Origin: a virus
Direction: 5' to 3' (one strand)
DNA length: 21,064 nt
IMG/VR virus record: IMGVR_UViG_3300032289_001479
Coordinates: 1-21,064 of that record
The notes under the pieces were generated by a model. That model was given only the letters and a program-made list of their open reading frames with translations, was not told the origin of the DNA and did not search any database. The position numbers were made by a program, and so were the translations under genes. Below are positions 6,010 through 19,889 of this stretch, piece by piece. Position 1 is the stretch's first letter. The number at the start of each line of letters is the position of its first letter.

Positions 6010-6573
6010 CTAAACAATAAAGTTAGATAATTCTTTAGTTTTGTCAAAGGTTAGAAAAGAAGTTAAGGTATATCTAACCGCATTTTCTATTTTTGTAACC
6101 CCGTGCATATGATCTGTACTTGCTGGGTGTACAGCCATTTTCCCAGGCTCTGGGGCAATTTCAAAATTATATTGAGGATAAAAAGTTTTTCCTCCAGAAA
6201 AATCATCATTTAAGTATATAACAATGCCATACTCTCTATGCCTATGTATTTGATGATCGTTGGTGTTTTCCATATTGTCTGAATGTGGGGACTGCTCCAT
6301 TCCAGGAAACCATCTAGTTATGTTTAGCAAGTCTGGATATAGTTTTTGATCTAGTTGATAACTATCCTGTACTGTATCAACAATTCTATGTTTGATAATG
6401 TCAAGCGTCTTGCCTAGTTCGGGATTTTTTAAATAGATTGAGTGTGCACCCACAACACGACCATCCCAAAATGATTCTGGAATGCGGGACCAAAGATCTG
6501 TGTTTCTTGCAAAACTTAAAATGTCTTCAGTTTCTTTTTTAGTTAAAAAATTAAAAAATTCTTTGGCTATCAT
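6010..6573 (-). CDS. 2-oxoglutarate/Fe(II)-dependent oxygenase, prolyl 4-hydroxylase-like
   Basis: The 187-residue protein has the signature of the P4H-type 2OG-Fe(II) oxygenase fold. The iron ligands are H97-x-D99 (in SPHSDN) and a distal His, most likely H157 in HMHGVTKI, with R167 exactly ten residues later as the 2-oxoglutarate-binding basic residue (VRYTLTSF). GIVIYLNDDFSGGKTFYP (about 116-133) is the conserved strand block before the distal His, and PEPGKMAVHP the strand leading to it. Length fits a single catalytic domain. Enzymes of this class hydroxylate proline or other side chains using O2 and 2OG. It is encoded among tail genes, near collagen-like and polyproline proteins, which makes structural proteins the likely substrate (inference). 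A small-molecule or nucleic-acid substrate is not excluded. TATAAT sits 5 nt before the ATG; there is no Shine-Dalgarno. Confidence 0.85.
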   Translation of the reverse strand: MIAKEFFNFLTKKETEDILSFARNTDLWSRIPESFWDGRVVGAHSIYLKNPELGKTLDIIKHRIVDTVQDSYQLDQKLYPDLLNITRWFPGMEQSPHSDNMENTNDHQIHRHREYGIVIYLNDDFSGGKTFYPQYNFEIAPEPGKMAVHPASTDHMHGVTKIENAVRYTLTSFLTFDKTKELSNFIV

Positions 6574-6578
6574 TTTTT

Positions 6579-6584
6579 ATTATA
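6579..6584 (-). promoter_or_regulatory. -10 box TATAAT of the oxygenase gene
   Basis: TATAAT is separated by only 5 nt (AAAAA) from the ATG at 6573. It lacks the extended TG but keeps the leaderless spacing used by its neighbours. Confidence 0.55.
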
Positions 6585-6590
6585 TTACTA

Positions 6591-7094
6591 TTAGCTTAGG
6601 CCAGCTTTTAGTGCACCCCAAGTACCGTTTCCTTTTGAATCAACTGAGATGATTCCATTTTCTGAAGCATGGACAACCACTGCTACTGCCCCGCCAACAT
6701 CCTGTGTAGCAGTCAATCCTCCAGATGTGCCAGCATATAAAATATTTCCAGCAGAAAATCCAGAAGTATTAATGTTTTCTAAAATTCCAGAAACAACAAC
6801 AATGCCATTTGCTCCATTAGCAATTGAAGTTTTTGCCAAGCCAAGAATTGGCTGAGTAGTTGAAGAAGTTGCTTTACTTACTGTGGCTGCAGTAGTATAT
6901 CCAGTTACAAATACTGGATCGCCTGCAGAAATCAGCACCCCGCTATTATTTAACACTCTTATTTGAGAATATGAGGATAGTGGAAGAACTGCCTCTAGCT
7001 TTTCAACTAGTTGCTTAATATCTCCATGAACATTAACGCTATCTTCTGCTAATGGGTATGGTAAGTCGTAAGAGTTTGATTGTCCTGTAGCCAT
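6591..7094 (-). CDS. Small tail/virion structural protein
   Basis: The 167-residue protein begins MATGQSNSYDLPYPLAEDSVNVHGDIKQLVEKLEAVL: a short attachment segment and a likely helix. Next is a beta domain with IRVLNNSGVLISAGDPVFVTGY, ILGLAKTSIANGANGIVVVSG and GNILYAGTSGGLT. This pattern recurs in phage fibre and decoration proteins and resembles a small beta-barrel with turns at Gly/Asn. No catalytic motif is seen. TGGTATAAT stands 6 nt before the ATG, so the message is probably leaderless and runs away from the divergent lysis promoter. Either a fibre tip or a decoration protein is possible. Confidence 0.7.
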   Translation of the reverse strand: MATGQSNSYDLPYPLAEDSVNVHGDIKQLVEKLEAVLPLSSYSQIRVLNNSGVLISAGDPVFVTGYTTAATVSKATSSTTQPILGLAKTSIANGANGIVVVSGILENINTSGFSAGNILYAGTSGGLTATQDVGGAVAVVVHASENGIISVDSKGNGTWGALKAGLS

Positions 7095-7100
7095 TCAATA

Positions 7101-7109
7101 ATTATACCA
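7101..7109 (-). promoter_or_regulatory. Extended -10 promoter TGGTATAAT
   Basis: TGGTATAAT with 6 nt to the ATG at 7094. It is divergent from the lysis promoter whose -35 begins at 7120, so the two transcription starts are only about 60 bp apart. Confidence 0.65.
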
Positions 7110-7119
7110 CGCAAAAAGT

Positions 7120-7148
7120 TTGAATATGAGGTAAAAAACTGGTATAAT
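7120..7148 (+). promoter_or_regulatory. Consensus sigma70-type promoter of the lysis island
   Basis: TTGAAT (7120-7125), exactly 17 bp, then TATAAT (7143-7148). Predicted start is about 7155. Unlike the minus-strand late promoters it has a recognisable -35, so the lysis genes may be driven more directly by host housekeeping polymerase. Confidence 0.75.
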
Positions 7149-7155
7149 TATAGTT

Positions 7156-7175
7156 AACTTCTTGAAAAAGAAGTT
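7156..7175 (+). other. 5'-terminal GAAA-tetraloop hairpin in the lysis leader
   Basis: AACTTCTT-GAAA-AAGAAGTT is a perfect 8-bp hairpin capped by a GNRA-type tetraloop. It lies at the predicted RNA 5' end and just before the AAGGAGG at 7184-7190. TTT-G-TT follows, so weak attenuation is possible, but a 5' mRNA stabiliser fits its position better. Confidence 0.55.
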
Positions 7176-7194
7176 TTTGTTCTAAGGAGGACAA

Positions 7195-7272
7195 ATGATT
7201 AAACAGAGTAATAACAAAGTGAAAATCAGCATTAACTCTAAAAGACAGACAATTTTATTGCTATCGCACTAA
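7195..7272 (+). CDS. 25-residue leader peptide ahead of the endolysin
   Basis: ATG at 7195 follows a perfect AAGGAGG at ideal spacing and opens 25 codons (MIKQSNNKVKISINSKRQ... ending LLLSH). The peptide is strongly basic with a short hydrophobic end. It matches no family I know. Its ribosome-binding site is as strong as the endolysin's, and the leader then forms a GGTACT/AGTACC stem-loop (7291-7308). Translation here could therefore control access to the endolysin start. It could equally be a small functional peptide. The open frame and the ribosome-binding site are seen; the regulatory role is inferred. Confidence 0.5.
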   Translation: MIKQSNNKVKISINSKRQTILLLSH

Positions 7273-7290
7273 TAAAAATATTGTCGCCAA

Positions 7291-7308
7291 GGTACTGAAG
7301 CTAGTACC
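7291..7308 (+). other. Leader stem-loop upstream of the endolysin
   Basis: GGTACT-GAAGCT-AGTACC: 6-bp stem with a 6-nt loop, between the leader peptide stop (7272) and the endolysin Shine-Dalgarno AAGGAGGT (about 7329-7336). No T-tract follows, so this is an RNA structure rather than a terminator. Confidence 0.45.
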
Positions 7309-7342
7309 GTAACAACGAAAAGAATAAAAAGGAGGTAGCAAA

Positions 7343-8092
7343 ATGAATAAAAAATTTGCTGCAATTAGTACTATCGCACTATTAACTACTGGATCTGGAA
7401 CTGCATTTGCTCAGATATCAGATTTGTCCAGTTCAAAAACTGAACAGATAATAACAGAAGTAACAAAACCAGCCCCGATAATTAACTCCCCAATAACAAC
7501 AGAAGTTCTTTTTTCTGGGCCAGTGAAGTATATAAGCCTAGAGGCTGGTCCAGTACTTACCTCAGATGCCCCGCTTATTGGATCTGTTGACTGGATGGCT
7601 CAGGAAAAGGCCGCCAAGGATAAGATTAAGTCCGATGCCGAGAAAAAGCAAGACGAGCTAGAGGCAGAAATTGCTAGACTAGAGAAAATTGCTAGTGACA
7701 CTAAGACGCTAAATGAAACTTTGATCTTGGTTAAAAAGCAAATTGGAAAAACCCCTTGGGTATTTTCTGGATCTACTCCAGCAGCTTGGGACTGTTCGGG
7801 CCTAGTTATGTGGACATATGCCCACTTGGGTGTTGAGCTAGAACACAGTGCGACTAAGCAACGACTCTCGGGCGTGTTTGTCACTGAGCCTAAAATTGGA
7901 GACTTGGTCTCCTTTAATTATCAAAGCTACGGAAGCGCCTATCATGTTGGCATTTACATAGGCCCAGATGAGATGATCCATGCTGGTGGCAAGCCAGGAG
8001 ATAGAACCGAAATACGCTCTATTAGTGGATGGCAAAAAGGTAATGGAAACAGCGAAGTTACATATACCAGGATTATTGAAACTAACAACTAA
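7343..8092 (+). CDS. Secreted NlpC/P60 peptidoglycan hydrolase (endolysin)
   Basis: The 249-residue protein starts with a Sec signal peptide: basic MNKK, hydrophobic core to about residue 20 and an AFA-Q cleavage site at 23/24. A low-complexity linker and a charged coiled-coil helix (about 86-135, KAAKDKIKSDAEKKQDELEAE) follow. The C-terminal NlpC/P60 domain (about 133-245) has the catalytic Cys in WDCSGLVMW (C151), His in YHVGIYIG (H201) and a third polar residue in MIHAGG (H213). These cysteine peptidases cut the peptide stem of peptidoglycan, usually the D-Glu to diamino acid bond. The domain order, helix then NlpC/P60, resembles actinobacterial RipA/Rpf-type wall hydrolases. A Sec signal implies export without needing a holin pore. 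Start chosen from AAGGAGGT and the signal peptide. It could also act as a virion-independent wall remodeller. Confidence 0.88.
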   Translation: MNKKFAAISTIALLTTGSGTAFAQISDLSSSKTEQIITEVTKPAPIINSPITTEVLFSGPVKYISLEAGPVLTSDAPLIGSVDWMAQEKAAKDKIKSDAEKKQDELEAEIARLEKIASDTKTLNETLILVKKQIGKTPWVFSGSTPAAWDCSGLVMWTYAHLGVELEHSATKQRLSGVFVTEPKIGDLVSFNYQSYGSAYHVGIYIGPDEMIHAGGKPGDRTEIRSISGWQKGNGNSEVTYTRIIETNN

Positions 8093-8109
8093 AAACACAC
8101 CTTGCTATA

Positions 8110-8138
8110 TTGACTTTAACTATAAAATGATATATAAT
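8110..8138 (+). promoter_or_regulatory. Consensus promoter of the holin-like gene
   Basis: TTGACT (8110-8115), 17 bp, TATAAT (8133-8138). It lies in the 72-nt gap after the endolysin, giving the downstream gene its own transcription start at about 8145 and a roughly 20-nt leader with AAAAGGA before the ATG. Confidence 0.75.
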
Positions 8139-8164
8139 ATAAAAAACTATAACAAAAGGAAAAA

Positions 8165-8407
8165 ATGAAAAACATATATAAAAGCATGGTCGTGTCTATT
8201 GTATTTGGAAACATAATTTCGTTTTCAACAGTGGCTTGGACTTTTCCATGGGACACTTACCTTATTGATCCAACCCCATATTATATTGTTGAGTCTGGGG
8301 CTCTTGGATTGCTAATTGCTAGCTGTATATTCATTTATGAATGGGTAAGATATGGCGAAAAGAAATGGCTTACCAAGATCACTGCTAAGGCAAAAATAAA
8401 GAAATAG
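8165..8407 (+). CDS. Two-TM small membrane protein, holin candidate
   Basis: The 80-residue protein has two hydrophobic helices (about 8-26, MVVSIVFGNIISFSTVAW, and 42-59, VESGALGLLIASCIFIYEW) separated by an aromatic/Pro loop (FPWDTYLIDPTPYY). It ends in a strongly basic tail KKWLTKITAKAKIKK. Size, two TMs, cationic cytoplasmic tail and position directly after the endolysin fit a class II holin. Holins have no diagnostic motif, so the function is by context. AAAAGGA gives the ribosome site. A strong terminator follows 15 nt after the stop. Confidence 0.65.
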   Translation: MKNIYKSMVVSIVFGNIISFSTVAWTFPWDTYLIDPTPYYIVESGALGLLIASCIFIYEWVRYGEKKWLTKITAKAKIKK

Positions 8408-8422
8408 CATTAAAACAAAAAG

Positions 8423-8455
8423 ATACCCTCAGTTAATTCTGGGGGTATTTTTTTT
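8423..8455. terminator. Bidirectional rho-independent terminator
   Basis: ATACCCTCAG (8423-8432) pairs with CTGGGGGTAT (8439-8448) in a 10-bp stem (one G-T pair) with loop TTAATT, followed by eight T on the plus strand. On the minus strand the same stem is followed by CTTTTTGTTTT, so it can also end the minus-strand unit finishing at 8485. It insulates the lysis island from the converging tail genes. Confidence 0.9.
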
Positions 8456-8484
8456 AGTATTTATAAAAACACTTGAAGTATTAT

Positions 8485-8775
8485 TTACCATTTTCCTAGA
8501 GGGCATGTGGCCTTCTCTAGCTTTGTTTTTAGATTCATAAAGCATCCGCATTTCTTGCACTGATTTGTCAAGGATATTAGCTCTGGGCATTGCTTACAAA
8601 TTTCTAGTCTAGCCAAAGCCTTCTCGTCAGTCGATCTTTCAGATTTTGGATTTATAAGATCTAGTGGTGTGACTCTTGAAGGCTTATTATTTTTAGAAGT
8701 ATCGACTGTTTCTAAAAAACTAGAAGACTCTTTAAGGTCCTTGTATTTTTTCCAAGGACTTTTGCTTTCTTCCAT
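8485..8775 (-). CDS. Cys-rich zinc-ribbon-type small protein (paralogue of 15655-15873)
   Basis: The 96-residue protein has a polar, Ser/Lys-rich N-terminal half and a C-terminal Cys-rich half: RLEICKQCP, then CKKCGCFMNLKTKLE, ending TCPLGKW. C60, C63, C73, C76, C78 and C91 are likely zinc ligands. The same pattern ends the protein at 15655-15873, so the two are paralogues. Such Cys-rich short proteins ending in CP-x-x-KW are frequent in phages of this type; I cannot name a function. The ATG comes 5 nt after the stop of the upstream 130-residue gene and no own promoter is seen, so the two are cotranscribed. Confidence 0.75.
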   Translation of the reverse strand: MEESKSPWKKYKDLKESSSFLETVDTSKNNKPSRVTPLDLINPKSERSTDEKALARLEICKQCPELISLTNQCKKCGCFMNLKTKLEKATCPLGKW

Positions 8776-8780
8776 TTGGC

Positions 8781-9173
8781 CTACTGGATTCCCTTATACC
8801 TAATTGTTGGATTGCTTTGTAGTGCTGCAATGAGCGCACTCATGGGGCCACCCTCGTCTTCTCTAAGAATTGAGTTACCGTAAACAGTTTCTCCAACAAG
8901 GTATGAAAATCTAAAGGTCCCCTCTAAAGAATCTGGAACTGTTTGATTTTCTGAATTGTCTGGATTTATAAAAGTTCTAGACTGTTCGTCATACAAACTC
9001 ATCTTTTTAGGTACATAGTCTAAATCAGTAATCTCTACTACTCTTGCGTTATTTTCAAACGCATATACCTTATCTTCCATAACTGGATTTATTAAAGTGC
9101 CGTCTTCTGTGCAGGCATAGGCAAAAAAGGGAAGCGTGTCTTCTCCAATTACTAATTCAAAAATTTTCCTCAT
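8781..9173 (-). CDS. Conserved-looking phage protein of unknown function
   Basis: The 130-residue protein (MRKIFELVIGEDTLPFFAYACTEDG...) is acidic, with alternating strands and no signal peptide or TM segment. The C-terminal helix includes GGPMSALIAALQSNP. No motif identifies it. It starts 5 nt after TGAGATAAT (leaderless geometry) and is followed by the Cys-rich gene. Its place at the end of the tail-gene block suggests a virion or assembly role, but the sequence does not prove that. Confidence 0.65.
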   Translation of the reverse strand: MRKIFELVIGEDTLPFFAYACTEDGTLINPVMEDKVYAFENNARVVEITDLDYVPKKMSLYDEQSRTFINPDNSENQTVPDSLEGTFRFSYLVGETVYGNSILREDEGGPMSALIAALQSNPTIRYKGIQ

Positions 9174-9178
9174 AATAT

Positions 9179-9187
9179 ATTATCTCA
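9179..9187 (-). promoter_or_regulatory. Extended -10 promoter TGAGATAAT
   Basis: TGAGATAAT with 5 nt to the ATG at 9173; the same leaderless arrangement with GATAAT in place of TATAAT. Confidence 0.55.
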
Positions 9188-9201
9188 TACTATCTCTATT
9201 T

Positions 9202-9942
9202 TTAACATTGGCAACAATACGCTGGTCCATATGTTGTGGTATATCTAACTTGCAGGCTGCCGTCAGAGCAGTTACCGTACTCATAATACCCAGCTTCAGA
9301 GTATATTGATCCATTAATACAAGGCTCATTGTCCCAATAACCACCGAATGACCAGGAACATGTAACTGCTGGTGGTGGCGGTGGCGGTGGTGGCGGAGGT
9401 GGTGCTGATGGACCAAGGGTAAAGTAAATTGTTGACGAATTAGAGTTATATCCAGATCTTGATGCAGTTACCGTAAGGCTGGTAGAGCCTGCTGGCCCTT
9501 CAACAATATATTCTGGGTAACTACCTTCAAAGTTGTCATATCCTGGACTATAAGAAGTGCCGTCTTCCCAATTTGTTAAGTTTATAACTTGGTAGTATCG
9601 GCCGCCTGCACTATTTCCGCTGGTAGCTAAAGAAAGAGCTGGGGCCGATAGGGTTGGTAGCGGCGGTGGTGGTGGTGGCGGAGGTGGTGGTGGAGCAGAA
9701 TAAGAGTATAATACAATAGATATTGATGTCTCATAATCAACTAGTGATCCACTGGCTATTGAGCTACTTGAAACCGTTCCATTATTGCCAGAGCTTGCTC
9801 CGCTAGATGTAGTGGTAGCCTGACCAAAGGTAAGGCCAGCAGAAATAATAGCCGATTGTGCTGCTGAAGAGCTTAGCCCAGAAAGATTTGGCACAGTGGT
9901 CATGCCCTTAGATGAAAAAAGTCCAGATGATAGCCCAAGCAT
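9202..9942 (-). CDS. PASTA-like, polyproline-linked, Cys-rich tail protein
   Basis: The 246-residue protein has a distinctive modular build. Residues about 17-80 fit a PASTA repeat: VPNLSGLSSSAAQ, then IISAGLTFGQ, then a terminal strand SLVDYETSISIVLYSYS. An uninterrupted block of 11 prolines follows (DNA 9661-9693), then a beta domain of about 90 residues (LSAPALSLATS..GSTSLTVTASRSGYNS). A second block of exactly 11 prolines (DNA 9371-9403) leads to a C-terminal tip with six cysteines (CSWSFGGYWDNEPC, YGNCSDG, ending AYCCQC). PASTA domains bind uncrosslinked peptidoglycan in actinobacterial and Firmicute kinases, so a wall-binding tail tip is plausible. The proline blocks should be rigid PPII spacers and are possible hydroxylase substrates. 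Its start lies 3 nt beyond the preceding stop. Confidence 0.78.
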   Translation of the reverse strand: MLGLSSGLFSSKGMTTVPNLSGLSSSAAQSAIISAGLTFGQATTTSSGASSGNNGTVSSSSIASGSLVDYETSISIVLYSYSAPPPPPPPPPPPLPTLSAPALSLATSGNSAGGRYYQVINLTNWEDGTSYSPGYDNFEGSYPEYIVEGPAGSTSLTVTASRSGYNSNSSTIYFTLGPSAPPPPPPPPPPPAVTCSWSFGGYWDNEPCINGSIYSEAGYYEYGNCSDGSLQVRYTTTYGPAYCCQC

Positions 9943-9945
9943 TTA

Positions 9946-10578
9946 TTAGGCCTTAAGGTCACCTATAATTAGCCACTCATTAGTGTTAATTTTAGTTAGA
10001 GTTGCCCCAGTATATTGTGAAGAAAGTTTTTTGTTTGAGTTTTTGCTTCTAATTGTAACCCCTGAGCCTTCTCTAAAAGTTACTTCCCCAGTACCCAGCC
10101 TCATGACTTCTAGTCTTGTGCCTACTGACAGTGGAACAGATGAATTAGGTGGTATATCCAAGAAGGTGTCTGAAGAAGAGCTAATATTTATAGTTTTACC
10201 AAAGTCTGAAGCAACTAGTACGTATGTGCTTGTTTTTGTTGATATCTGAACGTCATTAGCCGAAACCCATGTAGATAGAGTAAGGGAATAGTAAAATATT
10301 TGATTAATTACATTTCCAGAAGAGTCTTCTCTTATAAAACAAACTGCACCATTTTGTGGCGCTGGGATTGCCGCATCTCTAGCAGCTGGATTTTGAAAAT
10401 TGTTAACTCCAGCTTTTGAATTTACTACATCTCTAAAAGATACTGAGGCAGAAAATGAATGATCTCCAGTCCAGTCGTAATCGGCAGATGTGCTGGCACT
10501 TCCTGATACTGGATACCAGGTATCTGTTGGTTCATCGTAAATATAAGCTAATTTACCGCTGGTGCTAACTGTTGCCAT
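9946..10578 (-). CDS. Tail fibre protein with the C-terminal domain shared with the Mtd-like fibre
   Basis: The 210-residue product starts MATVSTSGKLAYIYDEPTDTW. A segment NFQNPAARDAAIPAPQNGAV (about 60-79), a typical fibre motif, leads to a domain with FYYSLTLSTWVSAND. Residues about 112-210 align with the end of the 523-residue fibre: PPNSSVPLSVGT, TGEVTFREGSGVT, ending NEWLIIGDLKA. That shared domain is probably a trimerisation or host-contact tip. The ATG overlaps the preceding stop as TAATG. It is cotranscribed with the PASTA-like gene that follows 3 nt later. Confidence 0.78.
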   Translation of the reverse strand: MATVSTSGKLAYIYDEPTDTWYPVSGSASTSADYDWTGDHSFSASVSFRDVVNSKAGVNNFQNPAARDAAIPAPQNGAVCFIREDSSGNVINQIFYYSLTLSTWVSANDVQISTKTSTYVLVASDFGKTINISSSSDTFLDIPPNSSVPLSVGTRLEVMRLGTGEVTFREGSGVTIRSKNSNKKLSSQYTGATLTKINTNEWLIIGDLKA

Positions 10579-11300
10579 TATCTATAGCTCCAAACTTCAT
10601 ATGTTCCGCCGTCAAAACTACCAGCTGTGGTTAGTGATAGCTGTACTGAAGATATCTCATTAGTATTTTTGTAATAGCCAAAATATTGACCAGCCGTAGT
10701 GCTAGCAATTGTAGATACTGGCTTTAAAGATGCAGCGGTATTTGCTAAGTCTACCAATATAGTTATGTCTTGAGTATCAGTATTTGGGAAAAGCGGAGAG
10801 GATAGCGATGAAGCAGATATCAAGCCGCCAGTATTTACATAGTTTGGTCCTGAATCACTATTAAATTTAATAGATAGACCAGATGTTGAGGAGTGGTTAT
10901 GACTCCAGTCTTTCAATACTATAAAAAATTTATCGGCGTCTATCCCTGTAATATTTATAGATAATCCAGAAAGTGATCCACTATCAGACAATACCCAAGT
11001 AGCTTTTTCAACCAGAGGGGCAATAACTGATGTTGAATCTACCCAGATAAATCCATTTTGTGGCTCTGCTGGTCGCGTAGATGCATAATCAGATCCAATT
11101 CCAGTATTTTCTACTACGTCAATTCTTGTGTCTAATGCTTTTATGTGACCAACAACAGAGTTAGCTATTATTTGTGACTCATTAGTTATTGGGGTAGCTG
11201 TTCCATAGTGATAAAGTTTTAGTGCAGCCTGAATATCTGCAGCATCCTCGTATCCTGGGATTTGCGTTTTATATATAGTGCCTATGTCTTCAGATGCCAT
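10578..11300 (-). CDS. Tail fibre/tip protein
   Basis: The 240-residue protein has an N-terminal helical region (DIQAALKLYHYGT, VVGHIKALDTRIDVVE) like the attachment heads of many fibre proteins. A short PAEPQNGFIWVDST segment is followed by a Ser/Thr-rich beta C-terminus (about 100-240) ending GGTYEVWSYR. No enzyme motif is visible. The chosen ATG has GGTGAT at 6-nt spacing. The promoter TGGTATAAT overlaps the upstream gene's stop, and an earlier out-of-frame ATG at 11313 opens a 7-codon minigene overlapping this start. Confidence 0.7.
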   Translation of the reverse strand: MASEDIGTIYKTQIPGYEDAADIQAALKLYHYGTATPITNESQIIANSVVGHIKALDTRIDVVENTGIGSDYASTRPAEPQNGFIWVDSTSVIAPLVEKATWVLSDSGSLSGLSINITGIDADKFFIVLKDWSHNHSSTSGLSIKFNSDSGPNYVNTGGLISASSLSSPLFPNTDTQDITILVDLANTAASLKPVSTIASTTAGQYFGYYKNTNEISSVQLSLTTAGSFDGGTYEVWSYR

Positions 11301-11318
11301 TTTTTATCACCATTTTAA

Positions 11319-11327
11319 ATTATACCA
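11319..11327 (-). promoter_or_regulatory. Extended -10 promoter TGGTATAAT overlapping a stop codon
   Basis: TGGTATAAT contains the TAA stop of the upstream gene (11320-11322). The first ATG is 5 nt downstream (11313) but is out of frame with the 240-residue gene, whose own ATG is 18 nt downstream. Confidence 0.6.
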
Positions 11328-11889
11328 CAGTAATGAATACGTGAACTATCTTTGTTCCTGACAAGTTTGACCAAGAACTGCCAGAGTATTCCACTGCCTT
11401 TATTGAAATAGGCAATACCTGACTTCCATCAACTATCTGAATTGTTCCAATAGTTAGTGATGCTGAAACTGGATTACTGTTAATAACATTCAACTGAATA
11501 TTAAAGTTTGTTGCCGTAAGATTCTGTCTTTCTGTAATGCTTGAAACTGGAATATTGATTTGTGTTTCACCATTAACAAAAGACTTACTATAGTTCTGAC
11601 TGTAAGTATTTGGTATTAGTTTGAATAGTGGGACCCAGGCATTTGCAGCACCAAGATTTTGATACTGATACATAAACAAGTATTCTTCATCGGAAGTTAA
11701 TGTATTTATACAAAGATCAAATACCTCTGGAGTCTGCCCTAATACAGTTAGTGGGTCAGTTGGGTTGCCAGCTGCAATAAAAATCTGACTACCGCGTTTA
11801 CCAGTGGCACCAAGATCAACATTTACGTTTATTGAGGACGGTCCACCAAGAACCACTAAGTCATCATTAGCTATTAAAACTTCTGGCAT
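11320..11889 (-). CDS. Minor tail/structural protein
   Basis: This 189-residue protein begins MPEVLIANDDLVVLGGPSSINVNVDLGATGKRGSQIF, followed by IAAGNPTD and a long beta region with FVNGETQINIPVSSITERQN and NIQLNVINSNP, ending VHVFITVV. The repeated valine/threonine strands and lack of catalytic residues indicate a virion protein, perhaps a baseplate or fibre-attachment subunit. Its ATG overlaps the stop of the BppU-like gene (TAATG), so the two products are translationally coupled and may form a complex, as the BppU-like/partner pair at 5364-5974 may. Confidence 0.68.
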   Translation of the reverse strand: MPEVLIANDDLVVLGGPSSINVNVDLGATGKRGSQIFIAAGNPTDPLTVLGQTPEVFDLCINTLTSDEEYLFMYQYQNLGAANAWVPLFKLIPNTYSQNYSKSFVNGETQINIPVSSITERQNLTATNFNIQLNVINSNPVSASLTIGTIQIVDGSQVLPISIKAVEYSGSSWSNLSGTKIVHVFITVV

Positions 11890-12233
11890 TAAGATGCTCC
11901 AGTAATATCTGCGGTAACAGTAATTGTTCCAGTAAGTAGTGTGTGTACTACCGAGTCATTGCTTTTAGCAATTTGAACATCATAGAAATAAGTAACTCCT
12001 GGAGTTAGACTTCTACCTCTTGCTGGAAGAATGGTGCAAGTTATTACTCCATTTGATATTGAAGATGTAGCCTCGTACTGAGTAGCCCCAGTTCCTCTTT
12101 TAGTTGCAATAAAAAATTTGCTTGAATATCCAGTTAGGCTAAACGCTGAGCCGTCTGATGCTTTTGGGGTAACGGTAAACTCAAAAGTATCACCGTGATA
12201 GTATGAAATATTATAGGTTCCTGGAAATGCCAT
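11889..12233 (-). CDS. BppU-like baseplate/tail protein (paralogue 2)
   Basis: Starting at ATG 12233 the product is 114 residues (MAFPGTYNISYYHGDTFEFTV...). It contains the HGDT motif, FSLTGYSSKFFIATKRG, ISNGVITCTILP and the closing GTITVTADITG, matching the other two BppU-like proteins. The start is supported by TATAAT 6 nt upstream. An alternative GTG at 12248, overlapping the collagen-like gene's stop as TAGTG, would add five residues by coupled translation. Both routes could be used, from a monocistronic leaderless mRNA and a polycistronic one. It is likely a baseplate adaptor for the neighbouring fibres. Confidence 0.68.
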   Translation of the reverse strand: MAFPGTYNISYYHGDTFEFTVTPKASDGSAFSLTGYSSKFFIATKRGTGATQYEATSSISNGVITCTILPARGRSLTPGVTYFYDVQIAKSNDSVVHTLLTGTITVTADITGAS

Positions 12234-12239
12234 AAGTTT

Positions 12240-12247
12240 ATTATACA
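12240..12247 (-). promoter_or_regulatory. -10 box TGTATAAT inside an operon
   Basis: TGTATAAT with 6 nt (AAACTT) to ATG 12233. It lies between the collagen-like gene and the BppU-like gene, so the latter may be transcribed independently. Confidence 0.55.
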
Positions 12248-12961
12248 CTAATTAACTGATATATATATTGATTTTATCTTTACCTCAGAGTCAAGATCTG
12301 TCCTTATTTGTGGAACAATTCCTGCATTTTTATGTGTTTCGGAAAATATTGCCATGGTATGAGTTATTGACATTTCATAAGTATGCTGATATTTTAAATT
12401 TGCACAAAATGTTGTGACCGAATCATCTAATCCAAAAAATTGAGATCTCATCCATACTTCTGTATTTGAGCTAAAAGTTGTAATCTCAATATCATAGGTT
12501 ATCTGTACTTGAGCACCTACCTTTAGTCCTCTTGTATTTATCTTTCTGGTATCTTTAATGTAAAGACTTACTGAATCTTCTGGTAGAAAATCTTCGATAG
12601 ATGCTTCTGAATCTACATAAAGATCAACCCAGCCATCTATTCCCCTAGAAGCGCCTGCTGCGGTGGCTTTAGGCTTTTTATTTTTATAAAGTGCCCAACC
12701 AACATTTTGATTATATTTTGGAAAGTATGATTTGCCATCTTTACCGTCTTTTCCAGGAATTCCACGCTCACCCCTAGGTCCAGTAATGCTTTCTCCAGGA
12801 TCTCCATTTTTTCCAGGATCTCCCTTTGGTCCTGTTGGACCTGGAGGGCCTTGGGGGCCAGGGACAGCAAAAAATACTCCTTCTTGTGGTGTTTCGACAG
12901 ACTGTTTTACTTTTGAAGCATACCCAGATGTGGGGAAATCGATGTTAGATGAAGTTGCCAT
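12248..12961 (-). CDS. Collagen-like tail fibre protein
   Basis: The 237-residue protein carries 14 Gly-X-Y triplets: eight from residue 35 (GPQ GPP GPT GPK GDP GKN GDP GES), an IT interruption, then six (GPR GER GIP GKD GKD GKS) to about residue 78. Proline occupies the Y position in GPP, GDP (twice) and GIP, the position hydroxylated by prolyl 4-hydroxylases. The ~160-residue C-terminal part (NQNVGWALYKNKK..., ending VKIKSIYISVN) is a beta-rich globular tip with no known motif. Phage collagen-like segments form trimeric stalks. GATAAT preceded by TGG sits 6 nt before the ATG; no Shine-Dalgarno. Confidence 0.82.
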   Translation of the reverse strand: MATSSNIDFPTSGYASKVKQSVETPQEGVFFAVPGPQGPPGPTGPKGDPGKNGDPGESITGPRGERGIPGKDGKDGKSYFPKYNQNVGWALYKNKKPKATAAGASRGIDGWVDLYVDSEASIEDFLPEDSVSLYIKDTRKINTRGLKVGAQVQITYDIEITTFSSNTEVWMRSQFFGLDDSVTTFCANLKYQHTYEMSITHTMAIFSETHKNAGIVPQIRTDLDSEVKIKSIYISVN

Positions 12962-12967
12962 ACAACA

Positions 12968-12976
12968 ATTATCCCA
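12968..12976 (-). promoter_or_regulatory. Extended -10 promoter TGGGATAAT
   Basis: TGGGATAAT, 6 nt before the ATG at 12961. The position 17 bp further upstream has no -35 resemblance. Confidence 0.6.
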
Positions 12977-13026
12977 GACTATTTAAGCAAGTATGTAAGT
13001 ACCGTTAATGTAAGTTTTGCTAATCG

Positions 13027-14106
13027 TTATGATGCGTTGGCTTGATAAATAAAGTTGATGTGAAACAGGTCATCGGTAGTAAGAATAAATGGACTAGTAG
13101 CCTTAAATTCTTGGTCTTGACTAGACTGGTTTAGGAACCAAAGACTGCAAACATTACTGTTTGGTTCTAGGTGCCCCTTGATGCTGTAATACCTCTCTAG
13201 ATCTGTGTTGTGAATAGTTCCGCCCCAAGCATTTGCGTGAAGTGCTGACTGCTTTGGAAGAGTGACTGAGTAAGCACCAGTACCAAAGTGAGTAACGGCT
13301 GTCATTGGAACAGTAATTTGCACAACAACCATCTGACCATAGTCAAAGTAAGTTCCTGTAGCAAGGTTAGAAGACTGTGTTAGACCAGTTCCAGACCAAA
13401 CAGGCGTATAGGAAATTGGAGTTGGAGCACTGGTGTCACCAAACGGACCAGTGTTTGTTAGATAAAGACCGTACTCGTTTCCATTCGTAAGTCCAGATGC
13501 AATGGCACCATAGGCAGTAGCGTCGTACTCCAGGGTCCAAATTTCTTTATTTGGAGAAACATTTTCTACGTTTGGAGTAGGGACCCCTAGTGTCAAAGTA
13601 AAGCTTTCATGTTCTCCAAAAGACTTAAAGGTCCAGGATTGAGGAACACCCTTTGATATAGCGTAATTAATGTAGGCATCTACCTGTGGAGTTCTTGCAA
13701 TTGCAATTGAATTACCGTATGTAGCGTGGCTAAATTGTGCGTAGTCTACAGCATAGTTGCTTGCTTCTTGGAATGCTGTTAATGGCAAGAATGCTGGAAT
13801 ACCTGCAACCACAAGACCATTTGTATACTCTGTCCAAGACTCAGTGCCTGGGGGATACCCTGGATTGCCTGGGTTCGTGGCTCTTATAAATAGCTGTCCT
13901 GGGTTTCCATATGGACTTCCAACTGGAATACTTACAATTCCGCCAATTGGATAACTAGCTCCATTGTTGTATTCACCTAGGTAATTTGGATATTGACCAT
14001 CTGCACCATCGGCACCTGGGGCACCATCAGCACCGTCTGCCCCGTCAGCCCCAGCAGGCCCTGGAGTTCCTTCTCCGCTACCACCTGTAGTTGTAAAACG
14101 TGCCAT
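13027..14106 (-). CDS. Collagen-like tail fibre/tip protein
   Basis: The 359-residue protein has a short Gly-X-Y collar at about residues 13-38 (GTP GPA then GAD/GAP repeats). Next comes a YPIGGIVSIPVGSPYGNPGQLF segment rich in Pro/Gly, then a large domain (about 100-359) with FLPLTAFQEASNYAVDYAQFSHATYGNS and a beta-rich end (VTLPKQSALHANAWGG, IYQANAS). Two Y-position prolines (GTP and GAP) are possible hydroxylation sites. The acidic GAD triplets resemble those in other phage fibres, where they nucleate a trimer. Its ATG overlaps the stop of the preceding gene as TAATG. Confidence 0.8.
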   Translation of the reverse strand: MARFTTTGGSGEGTPGPAGADGADGADGAPGADGADGQYPNYLGEYNNGASYPIGGIVSIPVGSPYGNPGQLFIRATNPGNPGYPPGTESWTEYTNGLVVAGIPAFLPLTAFQEASNYAVDYAQFSHATYGNSIAIARTPQVDAYINYAISKGVPQSWTFKSFGEHESFTLTLGVPTPNVENVSPNKEIWTLEYDATAYGAIASGLTNGNEYGLYLTNTGPFGDTSAPTPISYTPVWSGTGLTQSSNLATGTYFDYGQMVVVQITVPMTAVTHFGTGAYSVTLPKQSALHANAWGGTIHNTDLERYYSIKGHLEPNSNVCSLWFLNQSSQDQEFKATSPFILTTDDLFHINFIYQANAS

Positions 14107-15623: not shown

Positions 15624-15648
15624 CTAAGTGAGAGTTTTATGGTATTAT
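15620..15648 (+). promoter_or_regulatory. Promoter of the rightward small-gene unit
   Basis: TAGACT (15620-15625), 17 bp, then TATTAT (15643-15648) with TGG in front (extended -10). The ATG at 15655 is 6 nt further, implying a leaderless transcript. Confidence 0.6.
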
Positions 15649-15654
15649 TGCTGT

Positions 15655-15873
15655 ATGACTTCTAGGGACGATAAGAAAAGGGATGTAGTATTTCTTGACT
15701 TGTTTGATCCGAGGCAGCCTAGAAGCGACAGAGAGCTAATAGAGGCACGTTTAGCAATTTGCAATGAATGTCCCTGGCTAGATAAAAGATTAACAAAGTG
15801 TCGACAGTGTGGCTGCTATATGAAATTAAAGTCTACATTGAAACAAGCACATTGTCCGTTAGAGAAATGGTAA
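15655..15873 (+). CDS. Cys-rich zinc-ribbon-type small protein (paralogue of 8485-8775)
   Basis: From ATG 15655 the product is 72 residues. I prefer this to the upstream ATG at 15628 because the promoter box TATTAT ends 6 nt before it and would lie inside the longer reading. The N-terminus is charged (MTSRDDKKRDVVFLDLFDP). The Cys-rich end has C36, C39, C49, C52, C54 and C67 in RLAICNECPW, CRQCGCYMKLKS and HCPLEKW. This matches the 96-residue protein at 8485-8775 nearly position for position, so the two are likely paralogues with different N-termini. A zinc-binding nucleic-acid or protein-interaction role is possible. Confidence 0.75.
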   Translation: MTSRDDKKRDVVFLDLFDPRQPRSDRELIEARLAICNECPWLDKRLTKCRQCGCYMKLKSTLKQAHCPLEKW

Positions 15874-17376: not shown

Positions 17377-17401
17377 AGCCTATCACCAACTACCGACATT
17401 T
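17377..17401 (-). promoter_or_regulatory. P1: early-type promoter AAATGTC-N12-TAGGCT
   Basis: On the minus strand AAATGTCGGTAG leads, after fixed spacing, to TAGGCT. It is the only leftward copy of the signal and drives the operon 17333-16702. Confidence 0.7.
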
Positions 17402-17447
17402 ATGCCCATTTTACTAGAGATTTTTATACAAACTTTTACCCTGATTT

Positions 17448-17464
17448 TTGTAGGATATCTACAA
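17448..17464. repeat. Palindrome TTGTAG-GATAT-CTACAA
   Basis: Perfect 6-bp arms flank GATAT in the divergent region between P1 (leftward) and P2 (rightward). It is a good-sized operator candidate for controlling both. Confidence 0.45.
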
Positions 17465-17478
17465 GGTAAGCATTTGCT

Positions 17479-17500
17479 AGGTAAACAATAGGTAAACAAT
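17479..17500. repeat. Tandem 11-bp repeat TAGGTAAACAA (two copies)
   Basis: Two exact, directly adjacent copies. AAGGTAAGCA 15 bp earlier is a degenerate third. One helical turn per unit suggests a protein-binding iteron. The rest of this 345-bp gene-free stretch (17334-17678) holds P1, a palindrome, the first GGGCGCGG cassette and P2. Confidence 0.5.
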
Positions 17501-17516
17501 TGTGAATTCTCAGCGT

Positions 17517-17576
17517 GTCAATTTGACAACGACACGCCCGACTGGGCGCGGGCCTGTGGATAACTATGTGTATAAC
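17517..17576 (+). promoter_or_regulatory. Intergenic cassette T1: palindrome, GGGCGCGG hairpin, DnaA-like boxes
   Basis: TGTCAA-T-TTGACA (17517-17529) is a perfect palindrome. CGCCC-GACT-GGGCG (17536-17549) forms a hairpin running into GCGGGCC. TGTGGATAA (17556) and TGTGTATAA (17568) are DnaA-box-like, 12 bp apart. No rightward gene ends just upstream, so this is not simply a terminator. Confidence 0.6.
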
Positions 17577-17628
17577 TCTTTATAAGAACGTTATAAAAAA
17601 CCCCCTAATTCTTGGCGTGTCATCCCAT

Positions 17629-17653
17629 AAATGTCAGTGGTTCGTGGTAGGTT
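17629..17653 (+). promoter_or_regulatory. P2: early-type promoter AAATGTC-N12-TAGGTT
   Basis: AAATGTCAGTGG plus TAGGTT at the invariant spacing. The ATG of the next gene is 25 nt beyond, with AAAGGA as ribosome site. Confidence 0.75.
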
Positions 17654-17678
17654 ATAAGTAGTTAGAAAGGATAAATAA

Positions 17679-17819
17679 ATGAATAAATTGTTTACAAACA
17701 CTTGGGGAGATGTAGCTTTTTGCGACATCTGCGACAACTACACCGAACAGGTGTTCGTTGAGGAGTTCCAGCAGAAATGCTGTGAGGGTTGCTACCTAGA
17801 GTATGGAGAGTGTAACTAA
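17679..17819 (+). CDS. 46-residue zinc-ribbon protein
   Basis: MNKLFTNTWGDVAFCDICDN continues to C34-C35-E-G-C38 and C45. The C-x-x-C (C15, C18) and C-C-x-x-C pairs fit a single zinc ribbon. AAAGGA precedes the ATG, and the stop overlaps the next start (TAATG). A small zinc protein; its partner may be RNA polymerase or another host factor, but nothing in the sequence says so. Confidence 0.65.
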   Translation: MNKLFTNTWGDVAFCDICDNYTEQVFVEEFQQKCCEGCYLEYGECN

Positions 17820-17926
17820 TGGGACACTACTTTTCCTACCTAATGGATGACGAAGTTTTACGCTGTGAGGAGTGTGGAGTAAATGTCCTATCTCCAAGAG
17901 CAAAAGAAGTTTGCCCCTACTCATAA
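17819..17926 (+). CDS. 35-residue Cys-containing protein
   Basis: MGHYFSYLMDDEVLRCEECG continues to VCPYS. C16-x-x-C19 and C32 leave one ligand short of a full zinc ribbon, so it may be a half-site or dimeric. It overlaps the upstream stop (TAATG). Its own stop lies in promoter P3, an unusually compact arrangement. Confidence 0.6.
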   Translation: MGHYFSYLMDDEVLRCEECGVNVLSPRAKEVCPYS

Positions 17927-17949
17927 ATGTCATAGGTCTATGATAGATT
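17925..17949 (+). promoter_or_regulatory. P3: early-type promoter AAATGTC-N12-TAGATT
   Basis: It overlaps the preceding TAA by two bases. There is no hairpin cassette in front, so it acts as an internal promoter in a longer unit. Confidence 0.65.
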
Positions 17950-17980
17950 TTTACTAACAACAAAAGAAAAGGATAATAAA

Positions 17981-18115
17981 ATGACAGTAGAAGTAATGTT
18001 CCACGATGGCTCAACAATCACACCACACTATGACCCTGAACACCGCAAAAGTGTTTTAGAGTTCTATGCCAACCTTTTTGACAAGGGTGAAATTATGTCT
18101 TGGAAGGTAATCTAA
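17981..18115 (+). CDS. 44-residue small protein
   Basis: MTVEVMFHDGSTITPHYDPE... ends GEIMSWKVI. Predicted strand-turn-strand then helix (HRKSVLEFYANLF). AAAAGGA precedes the ATG, and the stop overlaps the next ATG. No family is recognised. Confidence 0.6.
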   Translation: MTVEVMFHDGSTITPHYDPEHRKSVLEFYANLFDKGEIMSWKVI

Positions 18116-18222
18116 TGATGTTCTATAACGGATTCAACCTGTTGATTGACCTAATGTTGGTTGCTGTTGTGTATGTAATTGCTCACGGCATTGGATACCG
18201 CAAAAACAAAGCACCGTTCTAA
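18115..18222 (+). CDS. 35-residue single-TM peptide ending APF
   Basis: MMFYNGFNLLIDLMLVAVVY plus VIAHGIGYRKNKAPF: one TM helix (about 8-24), then a short basic tail. The final KNKAPF resembles KNEAPF at the end of the TM protein at 18813-18953. The start overlaps the previous stop (TAATG). Likely a host membrane-targeting early product. Confidence 0.6.
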   Translation: MMFYNGFNLLIDLMLVAVVYVIAHGIGYRKNKAPF

Positions 18223-18227
18223 CGGCG

Positions 18228-18286
18228 TGTCGATTTGACAGATCCCTCGAAAGAGGGCGCGGCCCTGTGGATAACCCTGTGAACAA
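18228..18286 (+). promoter_or_regulatory. Intergenic cassette T2: palindrome, GGGCGCGG hairpin, DnaA-like boxes
   Basis: TGTCGA-T-TTGACA (18228-18240), hairpin CCCTC-GAAA-GAGGG (18244-18257) continuing CGCGGCC, then TGTGGATAA (18266) and TGTGAACAA (18278), again 12 bp apart. Order and spacing repeat those of T1, and the sequences align through to the promoter. Confidence 0.65.
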
Positions 18287-18329
18287 CTCCGTTATGAACT
18301 TGTTATGAAACGCCTTGGAAATATGCCAG

Positions 18330-18354
18330 AAATGTCGGTGGTTTGTGATAGGGT
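18330..18354 (+). promoter_or_regulatory. P4: early-type promoter AAATGTC-N12-TAGGGT
   Basis: AAATGTCGGTGG then TGATAGGGT. The GTGAT immediately before TAGGGT gives an extended -10 look. ATG 30 nt beyond. Confidence 0.75.
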
Positions 18355-18384
18355 TTTTAGTAAGCCAAAAGAAAGGAATCCCAA

Positions 18385-18525
18385 ATGGATAAAATGTGTG
18401 TTTACTGCGAAAGTGTTTTCACTTCAGACACGATTGTCTGCCACAACTGTAATGAGTATGACGGAATGATGCCGTTAGAGTCTGCCGTTGACTACTTAAA
18501 CCTTGACCCTAATGACTTTTACTAA
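18385..18525 (+). CDS. 46-residue zinc-ribbon protein
   Basis: MDKMCVYCESVFTSDTIVCH then NCNEYDG: C5-x-x-C8 and C19-x-x-C22 form a complete four-Cys zinc ribbon. The tail is acidic (ESAVDYLNLDPNDFY). AAAGGA is the ribosome site. The TAA overlaps the start of P5 by one base. Confidence 0.65.
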   Translation: MDKMCVYCESVFTSDTIVCHNCNEYDGMMPLESAVDYLNLDPNDFY

Positions 18526-18549
18526 AATGTCAGACCCCTATACTAAGTT
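18525..18549 (+). promoter_or_regulatory. P5: early-type promoter AAATGTC-N12-TAAGTT
   Basis: The weakest match after AAATGTC (CAGACCCC replaces GGTGG), but geometry is exact. It overlaps the upstream stop and has no cassette. Confidence 0.5.
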
Positions 18550-18573
18550 TGTAGTAATCAGAAAGGACAACAG

Positions 18574-18720
18574 ATGAAGCAATCAGTAATCACAGCCACC
18601 ACCATAAGCACCCTTGTGGCTAAGGCAGAAGATGTCATTGACAGACCGCTAACCTATATGGAGAACGCACTTATAGAGTATGTCGTTGACCAGATTCGTT
18701 TGGGGTTGGTCGAGAAATGA
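18574..18720 (+). CDS. 48-residue helical protein
   Basis: MKQSVITATTISTLVAKAED... ends IRLGLVEK. Mostly amphipathic helix, with no Cys and no TM. AAAGGA gives the start, and the stop overlaps the next ATG (ATGA). Unknown function. Confidence 0.55.
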   Translation: MKQSVITATTISTLVAKAEDVIDRPLTYMENALIEYVVDQIRLGLVEK

Positions 18721-18812
18721 CAACTGAAGAACTAGAAACTTTGATTTACCAAATTGACCTAATGCTAACTGAAAGTGTTAGCCAACTATTCACAACACCA
18801 GAGGAGAAATAA
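18717..18812 (+). CDS. 31-residue acidic peptide
   Basis: MTTEELETLIYQIDLMLTES... ends TTPEEK. It overlaps the preceding stop by ATGA, and its stop directly abuts the next ATG (TAAATG). A short acidic helix; no family can be assigned. Confidence 0.5.
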   Translation: MTTEELETLIYQIDLMLTESVSQLFTTPEEK

Positions 18813-18953
18813 ATGGAACTAGGTTTGATTCTTATTTTTATTGCTGTTGGCGTTTCAATTTTTGTTGGAACTTCGGTTGCCACAATTTTATTTTTGCTAC
18901 AAGAAAATAACAGACTTGGCGAAGAGCTAGAAAAAAACGAAGCCCCATTCTAA
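18813..18953 (+). CDS. 46-residue membrane peptide ending APF
   Basis: MELGLILIFIAVGVSIFVGT plus SVATILFLLQ: one long TM helix (about 4-29), then a charged cytoplasmic-type helix (ENNRLGEELEKNEAPF). GAGGAG precedes the ATG. The C-terminal KNxAPF is shared with 18115-18222, hinting at a common partner or origin. Confidence 0.6.
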   Translation: MELGLILIFIAVGVSIFVGTSVATILFLLQENNRLGEELEKNEAPF

Positions 18954-18959
18954 ACGACA

Positions 18960-18978
18960 CGCCCGAGAGGGCGCGGCC
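18960..18978 (+). promoter_or_regulatory. Intergenic cassette T3: GGGCGCGG hairpin
   Basis: CGCCC-GAGA-GGGCG (18960-18973) continuing CGGCC. It is preceded by ACGACA as in T1 and lies 6 nt after the membrane-peptide stop. GGATAA follows 13 bp later but no full DnaA box. Confidence 0.6.
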
Positions 18979-19026
18979 CATCGCAGGATAATAAATAACC
19001 TTAAGAATGTTTTAAGATCTCCCCCA

Positions 19027-19051
19027 AAATGTCCTAGGGTAGTGATAAGAT
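19027..19051 (+). promoter_or_regulatory. P6: early-type promoter AAATGTC-N12-TAAGAT
   Basis: AAATGTCCTAGG with TGATAAGAT. Leader of about 20 nt with AAAGGA before the ATG at 19078. Confidence 0.7.
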
Positions 19052-19077
19052 AATCTTATTAACGAAAGGAAACCCCA

Positions 19078-19599
19078 ATGACTAACTATGTAGAGATTTA
19101 TTCAGAGATTGCAAGTCGTGCAACATTTGGCCAGGTAGAGCAGGCAACTAAGTGGTACCTTGACGCAGAGACAGTAGCACGTGAAGTTGCAGCTAACCTA
19201 GGCGTGACACTTGAAGTAGGTGCAACTATTGTTTCAGCATTCAGCCCTCGTGAGCGCTGGGCACGTAATGTTTCTAACGCTATCAAGTTTTCACTAGGAG
19301 AACATGTTACCGCTCTAGGCAATAACATTCGCATGGCTAACGCTGCATTTGACTTAGGCTTCAAGGCTTTGAATGGTCAGAAGACTAATGCATTTGCTAA
19401 GGCTATTGCAGGTAATGAAGAATCAGTTGTGATTGACGTATGGATGTTGCGAGCAGTTGGTATTGAGAAGAAGACACCTAACCAGTCTGGCTATAACGAA
19501 CTTGCTAAAGCAGTGACTACTGTTGCAGTTAAGCATGGCATGACACCACGTGCAATGCAAGCCCTAATCTGGATTGTTGTTAGAGGAAGTGGAGAGTGA
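19078..19599 (+). CDS. 173-residue helical protein, possible HhH-GPD glycosylase-like fold
   Basis: This is the largest gene of the early region. It is all-helical with FSPRERWARNVSNAIK (about 55-70), LGNNIRMANAAFDLGFKALNG (about 80-100), VVIDVWMLRAVG (117-128, with D120) and a C-terminal WIVVRG. The order - an S-P-[RQ]-x-x-W-x-x-N helix, a K-x-x-x-F helix, then V-I-D-x-W - resembles base-excision glycosylases of the HhH-GPD superfamily, where V-D-x-H/W-V carries the catalytic Asp. No iron-sulfur cysteines are present. This is a fold-level guess; the enzyme activity is not established. It might act on modified host or phage DNA. Confidence 0.6.
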   Translation: MTNYVEIYSEIASRATFGQVEQATKWYLDAETVAREVAANLGVTLEVGATIVSAFSPRERWARNVSNAIKFSLGEHVTALGNNIRMANAAFDLGFKALNGQKTNAFAKAIAGNEESVVIDVWMLRAVGIEKKTPNQSGYNELAKAVTTVAVKHGMTPRAMQALIWIVVRGSGE

Positions 19600-19628
19600 T
19601 TGACAATAAAGCCCTAGTCTGGGATAAT
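19600..19628 (+). promoter_or_regulatory. Canonical promoter TTGACA-17-GATAAT
   Basis: TTGACA (19600-19605) and GATAAT (19623-19628) are 17 bp apart, with TGG just before the -10. It begins immediately after the upstream stop. It is the only perfect -35 in the early region. Confidence 0.75.
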
Positions 19629-19636
19629 AGAAGGTG

Positions 19637-19771
19637 ATGGAATTTTATGTTTGGTTGCCAGTTTTTATTTTATTGTTTTTACTTTTGATTTTTGCCCTGC
19701 TTCCAATTTTTGTTGGTATAGTTTTTATTCTAGAATATTTGGCAGAAATATTTAGCAAAATAAAAAGCTGA
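19637..19771 (+). CDS. 44-residue membrane peptide
   Basis: MEFYVWLPVFILLFLLLIFA then LLPIFVGIVFILEYLAEIF: two hydrophobic stretches (about 5-21 and 22-37) split by a Pro, ending KIKS. AAGGTG is close to the ATG. It has its own consensus host-type promoter, so it may be expressed independently of the phage early programme, for example in superinfection exclusion or lysis timing. This is inferred from the promoter only. Confidence 0.6.
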   Translation: MEFYVWLPVFILLFLLLIFALLPIFVGIVFILEYLAEIFSKIKS

Positions 19772-19777
19772 TAGACA

Positions 19778-19800
19778 CTCACCGATCTGGAGGGCGCGGC
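19778..19800 (+). promoter_or_regulatory. Intergenic cassette T4: imperfect GGGCGCGG hairpin
   Basis: CTCACC-GATCT-GGAGGG pairs with one mismatch, then CGCGGC. The 8-mer GGGCGCGG is kept even though the stem is poor. A T-run (ACTTTTTC) follows. Confidence 0.5.
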
Positions 19801-19858
19801 ACTTTTTCTGCCAGAAGTCAATTACGTTATGCATTAAAAATCTCCTAAAATATCCCCA

Positions 19859-19883
19859 AAATGTCGGTGGGTCATGATAAGAT
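19859..19883 (+). promoter_or_regulatory. P7: early-type promoter AAATGTC-N12-TAAGAT, leaderless
   Basis: AAATGTCGGTGG with TGATAAGAT, then only 6 nt (AAGGCT) to the ATG at 19890. This copy shows the TANNNT is a true -10. Confidence 0.75.
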
Positions 19884-19889
19884 AAGGCT

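Follow-up and report, generated by a model that had tools for sequence, protein, structure and literature searches.

What a phage tail module does with a prolyl hydroxylase-like enzyme is the question raised by IMG/VR virus record IMGVR_UViG_3300032289_001479, which comes from a freshwater bacterial virus. We analyzed this record as a complete stretch of 21,064 bases (the window), in which a tail module of (−) strand genes runs from about 15 kb leftward to the left end and includes a 187-amino acid 2-oxoglutarate (2OG)-Fe(II) oxygenase encoded at 6010–6573. An earlier note on this DNA, which gave the coordinates and common strand of its genes correctly, proposed that the enzyme hardens fiber stalks by acting on the collagen-like proteins of the same module, and listed a polyproline protein second. 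We gathered ~390 loci (L numbers below) around two anchor genes and around the genes for the collagen protein, stalk protein and enzyme. Our results favor a model in which the predicted hydroxylase modifies prolines in the linkers of the neighboring stalk protein encoded at 9202–9942, as a member of an interchangeable set of enzymes that tailor stalks. We consider this model moderately probable, and the link of the enzyme to polyproline is much stronger than its link to collagen.

The enzyme matches the PF13640 profile (E = 5.6e-9; 37.3 bits against a cut-off of 27) and belongs to a group that we call the PP clade. An AlphaFold (AF2) model, made from an alignment of 45 sequences, has a predicted local distance difference test (pLDDT) score of 95.6 and matches double-stranded beta-helix (DSBH) enzymes. 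In a comparison with the Protein Data Bank (PDB) by VIA-align, nearly all of the 50 entries listed were prolyl hydroxylases (P3H1, vCPH, PHD2, and bacterial, algal and Trichoplax enzymes). The best-matching solved structure among them was human P3H1 (Z 20.5; 2.2 Å over 178 residues), followed by the chlorella-virus enzyme vCPH (Z 17.8), the HIF prolyl 4-hydroxylase PHD2 (17.5) and the prolyl 4-hydroxylases (P4Hs) of P. putida (17.5) and B. anthracis (17.3). Assignment of the model to the prolyl/lysyl-hydroxylase fold is confident, and the matches listed include no endonuclease. The earlier note had read the active site as the H-x-D…H…R set of P4H-type enzymes. The residues themselves stand, as H97-x-D99, H157 and the distal R167 are conserved in 22 of 22 clade members, but the distal basic residue, which is Lys in collagen P4Hs and Arg in prolyl 3-hydroxylases (P3Hs) and PHD2, is an Arg aligned with that of P3H1. 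With a dN/dS of 0.12 relative to an 89%-identical enzyme in L004, the gene is under purifying selection. Judged from the model, fold and residues mark the protein as prolyl hydroxylase-like and do not specify its substrate. A comparison with cultured phages gave just six weak matches, all of them cyanophages and marine viruses, and a scan of GTDB genomes with the PP clade found no relative. As a separate observation, proteins resembling 2OG oxygenases or HxD relatives carry the names "DNA endonuclease V" and "ferrochelatase" in PHROG (phrog_2297, phrog_274, phrog_2954 and phrog_3531), and such names are probably inherited misannotations.

The proposed substrate, encoded at 9202–9942 (−), consists of a PASTA domain that the earlier note overlooked (residues 16–78, at 9709–9897; PF03793, E = 2.7e-7, 30.9 bits against a cut-off of 23.2), proline-run linkers and a Cys-rich end. 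It contains exactly the two blocks of 11 prolines that had been noted, at residues 84–94 (9661–9693) and 181–191 (9370–9402). Both runs are encoded by mixed CCA, CCT and CCG codons, which argues for selection on the protein, and thus on proline, over repeat slippage. Across ~100 relatives the linker is hypervariable and falls into a hydrophilic class (PPPP, (TP)n, (VTP)n, (NTI)n and (QNT)n) and an aromatic class ((FTPYS)n, (FSPFGVFGF)n and (FFPP)n). Another stalk, at L381:2397–2777, has 49 consecutive prolines, also in mixed codons (CCA and CCT).

The enzyme is statistically paired with such stalks. We defined a slot as the interval between the PASTA stalk gene and the anchor gene A3, which holds variable cargo. 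In a tree of slot 2OG enzymes, those of the window, L004 (as L170), L002 (as L204) and L003 (as L215) formed a separate clade with support of 100/100, and these are the four whose stalks have runs of at least eight prolines. Enzymes beside NT repeats clustered apart from them, with the deeper order of the tree unsure owing to several long branches. Further members, retrieved by enzyme sequence alone, brought the PP clade to 22 sequences, and the stalks beside the retrieved members carried (PPPTT)n, P23, (PPPPPSF)n, (VTPP)n, (VVPP)n, P49, (PPPVT)n and P10(VAPPP)n. Proline-run stalks, with runs of up to 49, accompanied 16 of the 17 clade lineages whose contigs include the stalk region as against 14 of 103 non-clade stalks (p = 7e-11), a comparison in which proline-rich open reading frames (ORFs) were picked for one group but PASTA proteins for the other. 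Because of this unequal picking, we redid the count on any ORF, on either strand, in both groups. Of the 21 contig clusters that contain the clade, 8 then had a run of at least 10 prolines, as against 0 of the 159 that lack it (p = 9e-9), so such a run is not a background feature of these contigs. The PASTA scaffold was found only in the stalks of the window, L002, L003 and L004, and other clade stalks are built on different scaffolds; shared descent of the stalks therefore does not explain the pairing. Of the proteins in the earlier note, it is thus the polyproline protein that co-varies with the enzyme as a candidate substrate.

A second association extends beyond the clade, to the slot as a whole. 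Slot cargo includes 2OG oxygenases, a second HxD family (2OG-B), PF11397 N-acetylglucosamine (GlcNAc)-transferases, GT61 glycosyltransferases, epimerases, O-fucosyltransferase (O-FucT)-like genes and radical SAM genes. The match of 2OG-B to the main 2OG family (hhalign E = 6.7e-5; probability 64%) is suggestive only, and we therefore treat its membership in the same superfamily as probable. A 2OG or PF11397 enzyme was present in 32 of 36 slots with low-aromatic linkers versus 4 of 32 with aromatic linkers (Fisher p = 1e-10), where the window and L170 were scored as positive although their enzyme lies just beyond the anchor gene. The association held under control by phylogenetic generalized least squares (PGLS; p = 3.5e-6) and in 22 nearest pairs (p = 1.3e-4), and the main 2OG family alone gave 25 of 36 versus 4 of 32 (p = 2e-6). 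Since the repeat pattern was first seen in these training slots, we tested it on 19 new ones: an enzyme was present in 12 of 13 with low-aromatic linkers versus 2 of 6 with aromatic linkers (p = 0.017; Mann-Whitney p = 0.002). The two aromatic exceptions also carry TP repeats. Aromatic stalks with a 2OG gene occur at L027 and L028 and, with the gene outside the defined slot, at L363 and L084.

Several observations weigh against a simple match between hydroxylase and proline. The repeat-class hypothesis itself arose from the training loci. The 2OG genes of other clades adjoin proline-poor stalks with NTI and QNT repeats, so the 2OG family overall is not proline-specific, and across the wider PASTA family the presence of a nearby 2OG gene showed no association with the proline fraction of the linker taken alone (p = 0.27). 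One lineage (L379, L380, L382 and L383) carries the clade enzyme with no proline-run stalk seen. Conversely, the 14 PP-repeat stalks of 103 without the clade include some beside another 2OG subfamily and some, of the FFPP type, with no such enzyme at all. Finally, the statistics for the clade-stalk association ignore phylogeny.

In the model that we favor, the enzyme would be made alongside the late tail genes and, late in infection, would hydroxylate prolines in the polyproline II (PPII) linkers of the stalk protein, before or during assembly. Hydroxylation might stiffen the linker or prepare sites for glycan attachment. We infer the proline, the stalk and either effect from genomic context, and peptidyl-proline hydroxylation by this enzyme is putative, its basis being the association with proline-run stalks. 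More generally, 2OG oxygenases and glycosyltransferases may constitute an interchangeable set adjoining stalk genes and matched to their repeat chemistry. Glycosyltransferases do adjoin clade members, of the PF11397 type in L026, L367, L369 and L375 and of the GT61 type in L374, L377 and L381, and nucleotide-sugar dehydrogenases occur in clade loci L385 and L388. These neighbors fit a use of hydroxylation in preparing glycosylation, although the window's own slot contains no glycosyltransferase or nucleotide-sugar gene. By analogy with plant hydroxyproline-rich glycoproteins, it is conceivable, and we suggest it tentatively, that phage stalks are decorated rods or coats, with hydroxylases and glycosyltransferases swapped to match the repeat (PP, TP, VTP or NT) and aromatic stalks left bare.

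The cassettes contain other genes of potential interest. PF11397, the family of the Skp1 hydroxyproline GlcNAc-transferase, is represented in stalk slots both alongside 2OG genes and in their absence (L026:1756–2679, L225:11888–12811 and L233:14897–15859). As an obligate partner of 2OG enzymes it was rejected, there being no positive association at the contig level. Directly downstream of the PP-clade enzyme, a DUF6065 gene was identified by Pfam in two loci (L381:5855–6607 and L011:1814–2602), and in several others the clade enzyme is followed by an unlabelled ORF of comparable length. Radical SAM/SPASM proteins, a group whose SPASM members are frequently peptide modifiers, also lie in PP-clade cassettes (L381:3453–4325, L374:1630–2517 and L378:2067–2942).

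How well do other explanations account for these associations? The variability of the slot cargo, which ranges over epimerase, O-FucT-like, GT61, radical SAM/SPASM, methyltransferase and PF11397 genes, is what one would see in a host-range cassette, where stalk and enzyme are transferred together or share a host and the true substrates of the enzymes are glycans or small molecules. We regard this as rather unlikely, given that the slot association holds under PGLS and nearest-pair control and that the PP-clade association spans scaffold types. A host target, such as EF-Tu or a surface component, with the location in the tail module a mere convenience of the operon, would accord with the closeness of the fold to the P. 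putida P4H–EF-Tu complex (4iw3; Z 17.2) and to the EF-Tu-modifying P4H of B. anthracis (5v7y). It is an unlikely explanation, since it accounts neither for the company that the clade keeps with proline-run stalks on unrelated scaffolds nor for the way in which slot enzymes track the stalk repeat type.

The explanation put forward in the earlier note, that the two collagen-like proteins are hydroxylated by the enzyme at their Y-position prolines, which would stabilize their triple helices, had several points in its favor. The best of the listed fold matches belongs to a collagen prolyl 3-hydroxylase, with vCPH, from the virus PBCV-1, also close; enzyme and Gly-X-Y genes lie in one module; and the action of a prolyl hydroxylase, P4HA, on viral collagen tail fibers has already been proposed from Baltic viromes (PMC9301287). 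Both proteins are as the note described them. The product of 12248–12961 (−) is a collagen-like stalk (PF01391, E = 2.6e-7, 30.7 bits against a cut-off of 27.2) with 14 Gly-X-Y triplets, Pro standing at Y in 4 and at X in 5; when modelled as a monomer, its C-terminal domain, a TNF/C1q-like jelly-roll knob, is mostly above pLDDT 90 and matches the tail needle knobs of Sf6 and HS1 as well as C1q-like proteins. That of 13027–14106 (−) has a single run of 9 triplets, with Pro at Y in 2, and this run is too short for a Pfam family match, the PF01391 cut-off not being reached.

The survey of relatives, however, did not bear out a co-occurrence of enzyme and Gly-X-Y proteins. The collagen stalk/knob protein is near-universal in this actinophage group, being present in 47 of 51 contigs, and three contigs of 92–108 kb (G007, G025 and G027) contain it with no 2OG gene detected. 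Among 66 collagens, proline at the Y position amounted to 15.5% with a nearby 2OG gene and 12.5% without, showing no dependence on the gene either by PGLS (p = 0.46) or in nearest discordant pairs (p = 0.98). A hint of an effect in an early and naive pooled test (p = 0.01) disappeared with more loci and phylogenetic control. Moreover, in L390, L394 and L395, which have large 2OG arrays, the collagens are 96–235 triplets long with about 0–1% proline at Y. Collagen is for these reasons unlikely as a general substrate. We did not retain the window enzyme as a collagen prolyl hydroxylase, as a test of its link to Gly-X-Y substrates with Y-position prolines found none and its clade follows proline runs instead; this alternative now seems to us quite unlikely. 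What survives of the earlier proposal is a prolyl hydroxylase-like enzyme in a tail module with a stalk as its likely substrate. As an aside, L390, L394 and L395 come from a phage lineage distinct from that of the window, which combines stalks of the YFPP/FFPP type with extended series of 2OG genes and with GAT/GPT collagens of unusual length.

A role in nucleic acid or small-molecule metabolism, whether the "DNA endonuclease V" of PHROG names or the DNA repair and modulation of 2OG levels suggested for cyanophages (PMC3037559), is very improbable given the prolyl/lysyl-hydroxylase fold of the model, and it would leave the tail-module location and the stalk partnership unexplained.

The favored stalk-tailoring model can be set beside several known systems. 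One is the prolyl 4-hydroxylase vCPH (5c5t) of Paramecium bursaria chlorella virus 1 (PBCV-1), a viral single-domain 2OG enzyme that is reportedly active on proline-rich peptides. It belongs, however, to a virus of a eukaryotic alga, shares 16% identity with the window enzyme, has Lys rather than Arg as its distal residue and, to our knowledge, is not paired with a tail stalk gene. The P3H1/leprecan catalytic domain (8k0m), the best fold match among those listed and with the distal Arg aligned, is likewise 16% identical, but is part of a large multi-domain collagen enzyme partnered by CRTAP and PPIB. The P4Hs of P. putida (4j25) and B. anthracis (3itq and 5v7y) share the compact prolyl 4-hydroxylase fold (Z about 17.3–17.5), but have EF-Tu as their known substrate and lie outside phage tail modules. 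In Dictyostelium, a prolyl hydroxylase and a hydroxyproline GlcNAc-transferase act in one pathway on Skp1, a cytosolic eukaryotic substrate; similarly, a prolyl hydroxylase-like gene adjoins a PF11397 gene in L026 and L225, although the PF11397 gene is present, too, in phage contigs where no 2OG gene was detected. Cyanophage 2OG oxygenases (the "leprecan-like" protein of S-SSM5, phrog_2297 and phrog_61) are phage-borne, of similar size and several to a genome, but show about 25–38% identity. A 2010 comparison counted at most 5 per cyanophage genome (PMC3037559), as against up to 15 per ~112 kb contig here (whole-contig counts for L219, L155, L169 and L205). In tail modules (L208, L139, L130, L220, L101, L115 and others), as many as 9 diverged 2OG genes stand in tandem, with gaps under 1 kb.

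Phage 2OG oxygenases, viral prolyl hydroxylases and a proposed link between viral P4HA and collagen fibers (PMC9301287) are thus already known. The roles of the phage enzymes have been guessed to lie in DNA repair or 2OG balance (PMC3037559), and viral use of prolyl hydroxylase has been termed cryptic (PMC9301287). A pairing of phage hydroxylases with polyproline stalks did not appear in any paper that our literature search turned up. The 2OG-Fe(II) oxygenases are numerous in aquatic phages, and the pairings of clade with stalk and of slot enzyme with repeat chemistry make their use testable. If our model is correct, protein hydroxylation, perhaps together with glycosylation, would join phage tail assembly, the expanded 2OG arrays would have a possible role, and small enzymes for modifying polyproline might become available.

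The (−) strand anchor A3 (6591–7094) is a conserved tail-module protein with weak similarity to Phage_cement_2. Viral contigs contain over 500 relatives of it, whereas none was found among 50,697 deposited phage records. Between it and the stalk gene is an NlpC/P60 endolysin-like gene on the (+) strand (7343–8092; PF00877, E = 1.7e-18), at a position where the slot survey shows a reverse-strand gene in most relatives. Upstream of the stalk gene lies a minor tail protein (9946–10578, (−); phrog_8780, E = 1.6e-20). As whiB is present in 23 of 30 large relative contigs, the host is most likely an actinobacterium; freshwater phages of Nanopelagicales have collagen-like tail genes within a variable island (PMC10202952). 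The window also encodes a pair of similar small Cys-rich proteins (8485–8775 and 15628–15873), the first of which is a DUF6171 protein (phrog_13558) whose relatives adjoin stalk genes and enzymes. In the right arm (17380–20846), 8 copies of a AAATGTCGGTGGTTNGTGATAR-like motif, against a chance expectation of 0.01, precede small genes and are perhaps early promoters.

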